From positions 1 through 8,937 of the forward strand of contig JAJYDP010000164.1 in NCBI GenBank assembly GCA_021777365.1: a stretch of 8,937 bases of DNA. The letters are read 5' to 3'. The translations under genes and the position numbers were made by a program. Shown one piece after another: positions 6,420 through 8,647 of the stretch. Source of the DNA: Chloroflexota bacterium. GTDB taxonomy: Bacteria > Chloroflexota > Limnocylindria > Limnocylindrales > CSP1-4. The notes beneath the pieces are model-generated. The model saw only the letters and a program-made list of their open reading frames with translations. It did not search any database and was not told the origin of the DNA. Each line of letters starts with the position of its first letter. Positions within the stretch are counted from its first letter, which is position 1.

Positions 6420-7886
6420 ATGCTGATCCAACCGTCATCCCCGGATCCCCTCCCGCGGACGCCGCCCGAACAGCCACACGACCCCGCCCGGGCCCCGGAC
6501 GCGGCTCCCGCCCCGGCTCCTGCCCCGGTTCCGGACGTGGCCCCTGCGCCGGCCCCGGTCGCCGGACCGGCGCCGGCCGGGCACGCCGATGGCCGTCGCG
6601 CCACGGTGTGGCTCGCGGTGATCGGCGCCGCCATCCTGGCCGGCAGCGCCCTCTTCGCCGCAGGATTCCTCCTCGGCCGCCAGACGGTCCTGACCGACGG
6701 AACACCGCCCCAGCTGGCGGCCGATCTCCAGCCGTTCTGGGACGCGTTCGATTCGATCGAGCAGCGCTACGCGGGCCTCCCGGTGGACCGGCGCGCGATC
6801 GTCGAGGGCGCCATCTCCGGCATGTTCAAGGCCCTGGGCGATCCCTTCTCCGCCTACATGACGGGCGAGGCGTACCGCGCCTCCCTCACCAGCGTGTCCG
6901 GCCAGTTCGAGGGGATCGGGGCCACGATCGCCACGGAGGACCCGTCCGGGAACCAGGGGTGCGAGCCGGCAGGACCGGCGTGCCGGGTCGTGGTCGTCCG
7001 CCCCATCCCCGGTTCGCCGGCGGAGCGTGCCGGGATCCGGCCGGGCGACGGGATCCTGGCCGTGGACGGCAGGGAGGTGACCGGCCTGACGATCGACCAG
7101 GTGGTGGCGCTGGTCCGCGGGCCGCGCGGCACGCCGGTGAACCTGCGCATCGGACGCGGCTCGGCGCCGCCGTTCGACCTGCGCATCGTCCGCGCGATCG
7201 TCACCACCGAGGACGTCACCAGTCGGCTCGTGGCAGGGGGAACCCTGGGGTACATCCAGGTCTCGGGATTCGGCGCCGGTGTGGCCGCCGACTTCAAGTC
7301 CCAGCTCCGCTCGCTCCTCGCCAATGGCGCCCGCGGCATCGTGCTCGACCTGCGCGGCAACCCCGGCGGGCTCATCGACCAGGCACGCACGATCGCGAGC
7401 CAGTTCATCGCCAGCGGGCCCATCTACTGGGAGCAGCAGGCCGACGGCTCGCGCACCCCGGTCGACGCCGAGCCGGGCGGAGTGGCCACCAGCCGCGCCC
7501 TGCCGGTCGCGGTCCTGGTGGACAAGGGCACCGCGAGCGCATCGGAGATCCTGGCCGGCGCCCTCCAGGACAGCGGCCGCGGCATCCTGATCGGCAGCAC
7601 GACGTACGGCAAGGGGACCGTGCAGGAGTGGCAGCTCCTGGGGCAGGACATGGGCGGGTTCAAGCTGACCATCGCGCGGTGGCTGACGCCGTCACAGCGC
7701 TGGATCAACGGCACGGGCCTGACGCCGAACATCGCCGTCACGACCCCGGCGTCGGCCACGGCCGGCGGCGACCCGGTGCTGGCACGGGCGATCCAGGTGC
7801 TGTCGACGAAGCTGGCACCCGCGGCCGGGACGACGGCCGTGCCACGCGGCGCAGCGGCGCTTGCCTTCGCCGCCGGCAGCCGCTAG
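6420..7886 (+). CDS. ctpA: S41-family carboxyl-terminal processing protease (CtpA/CtpB-like)
   Basis: A 488-aa membrane-anchored serine protease. A cytoplasmic Pro/Ala-rich tail (1-60) is followed by one membrane segment (about 63-86, TVWLAVIGAAILAGSALF), an N-terminal helical part (DPFSAYMT at 141-148), a PDZ domain (about 160-250, with GSPAERAGIRPGDGILAVDG) and the S41 catalytic core. The family's Ser/Lys/Gln catalytic set fits Ser373 (GTASASE), Lys398 (YGKGTVQ) and Gln402; the 25- and 4-residue spacings match CtpB. Such enzymes trim or degrade extracytoplasmic proteins from the C-terminus, and Bacillus places ctpB next to ftsEX, as here. ATG 6420 has GAGG at 6407-6410. In-frame ATG 6348 would add 24 residues and is less favoured. 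Two cysteines (181, 188) in a PDZ loop could form a disulfide. A weak CACAAT (6292-6297) is the only promoter-like element in the 158-nt gap after ftsX. Confidence 0.92.
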   Translation: MLIQPSSPDPLPRTPPEQPHDPARAPDAAPAPAPAPVPDVAPAPAPVAGPAPAGHADGRRATVWLAVIGAAILAGSALFAAGFLLGRQTVLTDGTPPQLAADLQPFWDAFDSIEQRYAGLPVDRRAIVEGAISGMFKALGDPFSAYMTGEAYRASLTSVSGQFEGIGATIATEDPSGNQGCEPAGPACRVVVVRPIPGSPAERAGIRPGDGILAVDGREVTGLTIDQVVALVRGPRGTPVNLRIGRGSAPPFDLRIVRAIVTTEDVTSRLVAGGTLGYIQVSGFGAGVAADFKSQLRSLLANGARGIVLDLRGNPGGLIDQARTIASQFIASGPIYWEQQADGSRTPVDAEPGGVATSRALPVAVLVDKGTASASEILAGALQDSGRGILIGSTTYGKGTVQEWQLLGQDMGGFKLTIARWLTPSQRWINGTGLTPNIAVTTPASATAGGDPVLARAIQVLSTKLAPAAGTTAVPRGAAALAFAAGSR

Positions 7887-7889
7887 TAT
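7861..7889 (+). promoter_or_regulatory. Promoter inside the protease gene end, for the small 7896-8013 unit
   Basis: TTGCCT (7861-7866) and TAGTAT (7884-7889) are separated by exactly 17 nt, and each matches the sigma70 consensus at four of six positions. The first bases of the -10 box are the TAG stop codon of the protease gene. Transcription would begin near 7896, a few bases before the AAAGGAGGTGAT ribosome site. Confidence 0.55.
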
Positions 7890-7906
7890 CCCCTGCAACG
7901 AAAGGA

Positions 7907-7941
7907 GGTGATGTGCAGTGATAGACAGTCATTGCACCACC
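7907..7941 (+). promoter_or_regulatory. Hairpin covering the small ORF's start codon and ribosome-site end
   Basis: GTGCAGTGA (7913-7921) pairs with TCATTGCAC (7929-7937) over 9 bp including one G-U, with a 7-nt loop. Below it, GGTG (7907-7910) pairs with CACC (7938-7941), with A7911 and T7912 bulged. The GTG start (7918-7920) and the 3' part of the ribosome site are thus in the stem, while AAAGGA stays free. This would allow translation control by structure. Confidence 0.5.
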
Positions 7942-7962
7942 CCGCGGGAGGCCTCGGCCTAG
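7918..7962 (+). CDS. 14-codon ORF with ideal Shine-Dalgarno sequence (possible leader peptide)
   Basis: GTG 7918 to TAG 7960-7962 encodes MIDSHCTTPREASA. Upstream, AAAGGAGGTGAT (7901-7912) is fully complementary to the usual 3' end of 16S rRNA, the strongest ribosome site in the window, with 9 nt from GGAGG to GTG. The second codon is ATA, normally very rare in such GC-rich genomes. ATG 7911 lies too close to the ribosome site and would open a long, unbiased-looking frame into smpB, so I prefer GTG 7918. The start codon is paired in the 7907-7941 hairpin. Function unknown: a leader peptide controlling the downstream RNA or a genuine micropeptide. Confidence is limited by the short length. Confidence 0.4.
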   Translation: MIDSHCTTPREASA

Positions 7963-7982
7963 CTCGCAGGTTGGTACGCAAC

Positions 7983-8013
7983 CGAACGCCGGCCCTCGGT
8001 GGGCCGGCGTTCG
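7983..8013 (+). terminator. 13-bp terminator-like hairpin before smpB
   Basis: CGAACGCCGGCCC (7983-7995) and GGGCCGGCGTTCG (8001-8013) form a perfect 13-bp stem with loop TCGGT. Only TGCGTCC follows, with no U-tract, so it is a strong stem of the kind often seen at transcript ends in high-GC genomes rather than a canonical terminator. It would end the small unit, and possibly also transcription from the protease gene. Confidence 0.6.
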
Positions 8014-8182
8014 TGCGTCCGGGGGCCCTGCTCGCGTATCCTCATCGCTCGCCACGGCAGCGGGCCCTCCCGTGCACGACGTGGCACCGCATGCCGTCGA
8101 CCGGCCCGGCCCGGCCCACGCACCCGCCGCGACCAGCCCGCCGATCGAGCAGGGCCGGCGCACCGGCCCGAAGGATCGTCAG

Positions 8183-8647
8183 ATGTCCGAGCACACGGTC
8201 ACCGTCAACCGCAAGGCGCGTCACGAGTACTCCATCGAGGAGACCGTCGAGGCGGGGATCGTGCTGACCGGCACCGAGATCAAGAGCGTCAGGGCGGGGA
8301 AGGTCAACCTGCAGGACGCGTATGCCCGGATCGAGCGGGGCGAGGCGTGGCTGATCGGGGCCCACATCGCGCCGTACGAGGCCGGCAACCGCTACAACCA
8401 CGAGGCGCGGCGCACCCGCAAGCTCCTCCTGCACCGTGACGAGATCCACGAGCTCCTGGGGCGCACGACCCGGAAGGGGCTGACCCTGGTGCCGCTCCGC
8501 CTCTACATCACCGACCACGGACTCGCGAAGCTCGAGCTGGGCCTGGCCCGCGGCAAGCAGCAGCACGACCGGCGGCGCGAGATCGCCGCGCGGGACGCGC
8601 GCCGGGAGCTCGACCGGGAGCTGGCCGACGCCGATCGCGGCCGGTAG
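8183..8647 (+). CDS. smpB: SsrA-binding protein SmpB
   Basis: A 154-aa small basic protein that binds tmRNA and places it in the empty A site of stalled ribosomes, the protein half of trans-translation. The family hallmarks are complete: NRKARHEYSI (9-18), VLTGTEIKSVRAGKVNLQDAY (27-47), HIAPYEAGNRYNHEARRTRKLLL (61-83), LYITDHGLAKLELGLARGKQQHD (107-129) and the Arg-rich C-terminal tail (RRREIAARDARRELDRE) that enters the mRNA channel. Start ATG 8183 has AGGA at 8172-8175. An in-frame upstream start at 8072 would add 37 atypical residues and is rejected. The gene stands just upstream of ssrA, a common pairing. The gap before it (8014-8182) contains only a weak TATCCT (8037-8042) as a possible -10 box, so its own promoter is uncertain. 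Confidence 0.96.
   Translation: MSEHTVTVNRKARHEYSIEETVEAGIVLTGTEIKSVRAGKVNLQDAYARIERGEAWLIGAHIAPYEAGNRYNHEARRTRKLLLHRDEIHELLGRTTRKGLTLVPLRLYITDHGLAKLELGLARGKQQHDRRREIAARDARRELDRELADADRGR

Follow-up and report, generated by a model that had tools for sequence, protein, structure and literature searches.

We found that a 153-nt unit between ctpA and smpB is conserved in five families of Limnocylindria (Chloroflexota), and that its promoter, the frame of its short ORF, its alternative hairpins and its end hairpin have been kept jointly, in agreement with the original prediction that these parts form one selected unit. We tentatively favour the reading, held with slightly less than even confidence, that this element is a translated, attenuator-like leader RNA which opens the smpB transcription unit and would set the supply of SmpB in cis. 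Comparison between genomes supports the unit itself, the kept frame, the alternative stem H2 and the link to smpB. The positions of the features within the window, by which we mean the whole stretch of 8,937 nt which was analysed, are given in Table 1.

Table 1 Features of the element and of the gene downstream of it in the window.
Feature	Positions	Strand	Details
Promoter	7861-7889	+	-35 TTGCCT 7861-7866, 17-nt spacer, -10 TAGTAT 7884-7889
Probable transcription start region	7896-7899	+	7-10 nt past the -10 box; conserved block starts here
Extended Shine-Dalgarno	7900-7912	+	GAAAGGAGGTGAT; 13-nt complementarity to the 16S 3′ end
H1	7904-7943	+	5′ arm 7904-7922, 3′ arm 7928-7943; would mask the Shine-Dalgarno and start codon
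Leader ORF	7918-7962	+	MIDSHCTTPREASA; GTG 7918-7920, 14 codons, TAG 7960-7962
H2	7937-7974	+	Alternative stem; arms 7937-7948/7963-7974, enclosing the stop codon
H3	7983-8013	+	Terminator-like hairpin, 13 bp; arms 7983-7995/8001-8013, 100% complementary
smpB	8183-8647	+	Gene downstream of the element; Pfam SmpB, E 2.5e-60

Genomic setting and distribution

Judged by its open frames, the window contains prfB, ftsE, ftsX and ctpA, then the element and smpB; it also takes in the beginning of tmRNA. Pfam confirmed ctpA and smpB; the frames which we take to be prfB, ftsE and ftsX were named from their translations. In prfB the sequence CTT TGA C (1362-1368) follows 19 codons from the ATG at 1305, and the frame resumes in the ORF at 1573-2415; this is presumably the classical programmed +1 frameshift site, as in E. 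coli prfB.

The DNA from 7880 to 8030 matches 48 of the 61 genomes searched, the window's own genome included, and a 17-nt core pattern occurs in 121/177 class genomes, none of which matches the pattern when reversed. The RNA from 7896 to 8019 has a predicted fold of -72.8 kcal/mol (z = -6.5), and none of 200 shuffles was as stable. The suspicion that the unit holds more order than chance would give is thereby upheld, and its stems and ORF frame were found to be kept in close relatives. A 19-nt core gave at least 119 stretches in named genomes, 80 of which are listed by name, including Candidatus Limnocylindrales, CSP1-4 and Candidatus Aquidulcis, names from which we take the class to be Limnocylindria; among the matches listed, smpB lies ≤ 600 nt downstream in 92/119. 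The Limnocylindria which carry the element are soil and freshwater bacteria. When as many as 2 mismatches were allowed, 108/400 genomes from the phylum contained the core (2 hits for the reversed pattern), a set which includes chance matches and for which the flanks of the loci retrieved were inspected. Ktedonobacteria and several other families share the same plan of promoter, extended Shine-Dalgarno, short ORF, paired arms and end hairpin.

Copies were grouped by sequence pattern after merging identical sequences, giving 127 distinct copies in the class and 28 outside it. The class families are referred to as f1 (the window's family) to f5, the last being one genome which was counted with f3. 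Whole-group counts omit the core-bearing sequences which lack the plan (L108, L118, L128, L134, L149, L152, L184, L190, L218 and L235), as well as L249, L302-L308 and the CC2171 loci discussed below. Among 19 pattern-negative class genomes, 9 had no smpB match, 3 were cut off and 7 carried the element with altered start spacing (six with ATG, one with GTG). Two genomes contained two copies, each with its own smpB (L086 and L087 in G084, L094 and L095 in G111); these bins may be mixed.

Promoter

The promoter named in the original prediction is present with its 17-nt spacer, and its -10 box overlaps the ctpA stop codon (TAG, 7884-7886). Counted by hand it matches the sigma-70 consensus at 8/12 positions, and it was not among the sites listed by a generic promoter scan of the window; despite this modest match it is conserved in relatives. 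AAGG lies 11-13 nt past the end of the top-scoring promoter-like site in every one of the class copies (125/125), these sites having a mean score of 7.9 vs 5.9 in shuffles. As the score favours TA....T, the fixed distance to AAGG is better evidence than the score itself. Ktedonobacterial promoters (17 copies) are near TTGACA and TATAAT, scoring 11.4 vs 7.1 in shuffles.

Shine-Dalgarno and leader ORF

The 16S end GGATCACCTCCTTTC, to which the extended Shine-Dalgarno was compared, was found in 6 of 12 related genomes and gave no match in the window's own assembly. The motif AAAGGAGG has a single occurrence in the window (7901-7908), against 0.06 expected, which fits the earlier description of this site as the best Shine-Dalgarno of the window. 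The 14-codon ORF with an ATA second codon is likewise present, and the leader ORFs of relatives have 13-30 codons. Over 155 copies the stop codons are TAG in 89, TAA in 50 and TGA in 13, with 3 copies ending before the stop.

The frame of this ORF is strictly kept. We measured distances in 66 of 67 non-redundant f1 copies, the other having no CCACCTC anchor: the start codon lies 19, 22, 25 or 28 nt from the anchor and the anchor 20 or 23 nt from the stop, each distance falling in one residue modulo 3 (66/66 copies), whereas the control distance from the stop to H3 is spread over all three residues (26, 17 and 21 copies). This conservation rules out a chance ORF, and the leader ORF is probably translated, as judged by the kept frame.

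The kept frame (66/66) would also suit a micropeptide gene whose function is its product of 13-30 residues, as would the Cys-Thr-Thr-Ser found in most f1 peptides and the synonymous changes of f2, which are commoner in the true frame (0.39 vs 0.22 and 0.24). No such excess was seen in f1 (0.12 vs 0.22 and 0.15), f4 (0.12 vs 0.28 and 0.19) or Ktedonobacteria (0.09 vs 0.24 and 0.08), nor clearly in f3 (0.19 vs 0.22 and 0.15), so that outside f2 a conserved leader peptide is unsupported by this test. The peptides also diverge strongly between families, and the Cys-Thr-Thr-Ser codons coincide with the anti-SD mimic and H2 arm described below. We regard a micropeptide gene as very unlikely, and it is the weakest of the interpretations originally offered because the peptide is not clearly conserved. 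Translation of the leader ORF, rather than a peptide product, seems to be what is kept. No run of codons for one regulatory amino acid was found in the leader peptides checked.

Alternative hairpins and end hairpin

H1 was found both in the consensus of 65 f1 copies, where GG.GGUG..GUGCAGU pairs with GCUGCACCACCUC, and in the predicted fold of the window's copy; its 3′ arm contains CACCACC, a mimic of the anti-Shine-Dalgarno. H2, which was recognised by eye, pairs the CCACC stretch of H1 with GGTGG just 5′ of H3, and the two stems are mutually exclusive through their common use of this stretch. The window's H2 contains two mismatches, and the minimum-energy fold does not include it. The two further hairpins originally proposed beside the end stem are present in the predicted fold as bulged structures, which did not appear in an ungapped repeat search; the 13-bp end stem was confirmed. 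In one ktedonobacterial element (L206, the same as L222 and L252), ACATCACCTCCTTTCGT after the leader stop is the exact reverse complement of the whole Shine-Dalgarno region.

We examined covariation without alignment, by comparing the pairing of each copy's own arms with that of arms from other copies in 2000 shuffles; the results are to be taken as indications, since relatedness survives shuffling. For H2 the own arms paired better in f1 (0/2000), Ktedonobacteria (0/2000) and f3 (6/2000), an indication of covariation in these groups; there was no signal in f2 (1936/2000) or f4 (533/2000), which counts against a cis leader. A stem around the stop codon was supported in f1 (0/2000), weakly in Ktedonobacteria (19/2000) and f4 (28/2000), and had no support in f2 (125/2000) or f3 (1134/2000). 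H1 gave 2/2000 in Ktedonobacteria and 10/2000 in f3, with no signal in f1, f2 and f4, where its arms hardly vary. The lowest values among 16 control pairings were 46/2000 and 108/2000.

Compensatory changes were seen in H3 in the consensus of the 65 f1 copies. A T-run after H3 is absent in f1, a point against a cis leader, and T-rich tails are found in f2, f3, f4 and Ktedonobacteria; it should be noted that these tails come in part from an automatic hairpin finder which often chose wrong stems, that its gap table served for the tails alone, and that the f1 gaps were recomputed separately.

Downstream genes and transcription into smpB

Of the 127 distinct class copies, 117 are followed by a co-directional smpB no more than 700 nt away. 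At L121 the start of smpB is visible at the contig end, and six other class copies without smpB end within 52-271 nt. The remaining cases count against a cis leader: no smpB was found in the 525 nt after L097 or the 412 nt after L158, and at L112, near a contig end, the strand opposite to the element carries smpB, 145-600 nt further on, an arrangement which is either an inversion or a misassembly. In nine f3 loci (L261-L269) smpB follows the element and no ctpA match was found in the 1.1-1.5 kb upstream; the f5 locus (L260) has ctpA. The element staying with smpB where ctpA is absent rules out that it is a mere end of ctpA.

The gap between H3 and smpB in f1 is ≤ 40 nt in 8/83 copies and ≤ 60 nt in 19/83. 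The 75 f1 gaps longer than 40 nt gave no promoter signal (6.08 vs 5.93 in shuffles, compared with 7.92 for the element's own promoters), and transcription therefore probably reads through into smpB, starting from the element's promoter or further upstream. A TATCCT/TATGCT-like box recurs ~25-30 nt past H3 in the window's genus (8037-8042 in the window; also L003, L154 and L189) and could be a weak separate promoter of smpB.

Outside the class, 19 of the 28 distinct copies stand before birA, 1 before greA and 8 before something else or nothing visible. Pfam confirmed birA in 3 loci, while the neighbours which we take to be greA and lysS were named from the similarity between loci. At L171 another gene intervenes. 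The gene after L250, L254, L273, L274 and L275 is not birA, greA, lysS or smpB, and that after L250 looks by eye like a Fur-type regulator. These neighbours, mostly birA with some other or opposite-strand genes, count against a cis leader.

The chief rival reading is a self-contained small RNA acting in trans and resembling the Rfam family CC2171 (RF01867), to which smpB would be tied by neighbourhood or a shared promoter alone; its 13-nt Shine-Dalgarno might, for example, engage free 30S subunits, or it might pair with other RNAs. The element's own promoter and end hairpin are in keeping with this, as are the ktedonobacterial copy L133, whose next gene is convergent, and the similar anatomy of CC2171, whose neighbours vary and often lie on the opposite strand. 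Within the class, by contrast, the link to smpB is constant even without ctpA, and smpB has no promoter signal of its own after H3. We consider a small RNA, as suggested originally and again by the CC2171-like anatomy, possible if rather unlikely. Of the interpretations offered then, a leader controlling smpB fits best because the link to smpB is constant and no other promoter signal was found; we infer from these comparisons that the element may control the supply of smpB or tmRNA.

If the element is such a leader, transcription would begin a few bases 5′ of the 13-nt Shine-Dalgarno, the short leader ORF would be translated, and the nascent RNA would either mask its own Shine-Dalgarno by forming H1 or expose it by forming H2. 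A large share of transcripts would end at H3, giving an RNA of ~120 nt, and the remainder would continue into smpB. Ribosome availability or translation stress would probably set the amount of SmpB by way of the ORF and the H1/H2 switch. What we infer in this scheme is that transcripts terminate at H3 or read through it, how they pass it, and that translation is sensed. Folding with a ribosome placed at either the start or the stop codon revealed no antiterminator, the probability of H3 being unchanged in 10/14 examples; this is a thermodynamic model, and in the other 4/14 the wrong H3 had been picked (L165/L228, which are one sequence, L032 and L244). An antiterminator which excludes H3 is unsupported in the model, where H3 is equally likely at either ribosome position, a point against a cis leader. 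That insensitivity would be in line with a passive promoter and leader with a weak smpB terminator, whose structures sense nothing and serve to insulate the RNA or make it more stable. However, a kept frame and a covarying H2 which excludes H1 exceed what a passive leader would need, making this quite improbable.

Comparison with known systems

No description of the element was found in titles or abstract openings of open PMC articles. Of the traits of a leader-peptide attenuator it shows a short ORF which is probably translated, with the conserved H3 as a putative intrinsic terminator; no antiterminator was seen in the folded examples, and no regulatory codon run in the peptides checked.

The E. 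coli greA and rnk leaders and GraL are treated in PMC2965389 as transcription attenuators in which a short RNA ends at a terminator before the gene; clear antiterminators are reported there, a trans role of the short RNA is discussed, and the main text makes no mention of smpB, lysS or Chloroflexi. By description, the element resembles these leaders in its putative short RNA with a terminator-like hairpin before a gene, and one copy (L244) lies directly before greA, but their antiterminators are clear whereas none was seen in the element's folding. In Staphylococcus aureus, rbfL is described in PMC13009471 as a short GUG-started ORF with extended Shine-Dalgarno pairing before the gene it controls; it acts by blocking the ribosome-binding site after it and by reading arginine codons. 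The element likewise has a GTG-started short leader ORF with an extended Shine-Dalgarno before a gene; unlike rbfL, this ORF ends far before smpB and contains no single-codon run, and the element's Shine-Dalgarno can be masked by its own RNA.

The best Rfam match of the element is CC2171 (window 20.1 bits, gathering cut-off 75). No family reached its gathering score over the window's copy of the element or over any of 12 loci, and over 41 class genomes 0/41 exceeded the RF01867 cut-off (best 35.4 bits), at least 14 of the 41 matching at the element with 15.5-35.4 bits amid noise of similar score. The element was called undescribed, and no Rfam family contains it at gathering score, but it is not wholly new in kind because CC2171 has the same anatomy. 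Most of the CC2171 loci examined have a 5′-terminal GAAAGGAGGTGA followed by a GTG or ATG start, a short ORF, paired arms around the stop and an end hairpin; in the RF01867 alignment the element's 5′-terminal extended Shine-Dalgarno and start codon are both present. Judged by this anatomy the element is of the same kind as CC2171, at scores below those of family membership. CC2171 differs in being an alphaproteobacterial (Caulobacter) sRNA, from another phylum, whose next genes vary, are often on the opposite strand and include no fixed downstream gene. CC2171 loci often stand alone, which counts against a cis leader. No function of CC2171 was found in the parts of the literature covered.

In the phylum of L152 (presumably Pseudomonadota), CC2171 matches were found in 17/120 genomes, 2 of them over the cut-off. 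The element's plan is shared, in core and flanks, by 16 of 19 CC2171 loci (L294, L299 and L301 lack it), the start codon being unclear in L296. A model built from the element (R1) matched 6/14 CC2171 loci at 20-39 bits, a point in favour of a trans-acting RNA; f4 copies scored 35-39 and decoys holding the 19-nt core ≤ 11 bits. R1 did not find L291 or L296 and matched L293 in part. Sequence outside the core beat all shuffles in 3/10 CC2171 loci (L284, L289 and L290). Downstream of L291, L293 and L296, which match CC2171 below the cut-off, the next gene encodes a Pfam RF-1-domain protein with GGQ, which we read as an ArfB-like ribosome-rescue gene.

A broader and more speculative reading, which we think unlikely, is that small mRNAs of one kind occur in two or more phyla and that what is conserved in them is the initiation of translation as such. 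A very strong Shine-Dalgarno, which the RNA could mask with its anti-SD mimic, would gauge how many 30S subunits are free and thereby set the supply of factors which rescue stalled ribosomes and polymerases, namely SmpB here, ArfB by the three weaker CC2171 matches and GreA in other Chloroflexota.

If our reading of the leader is right, trans-translation would be controlled by an RNA before smpB which responds to translation itself, and the CC2171 small RNAs would gain an anatomy (a short ORF with a Shine-Dalgarno/anti-Shine-Dalgarno switch) and a testable role, with relatives in Ktedonobacteria and CC2171 in laboratory Caulobacter in which to test it.
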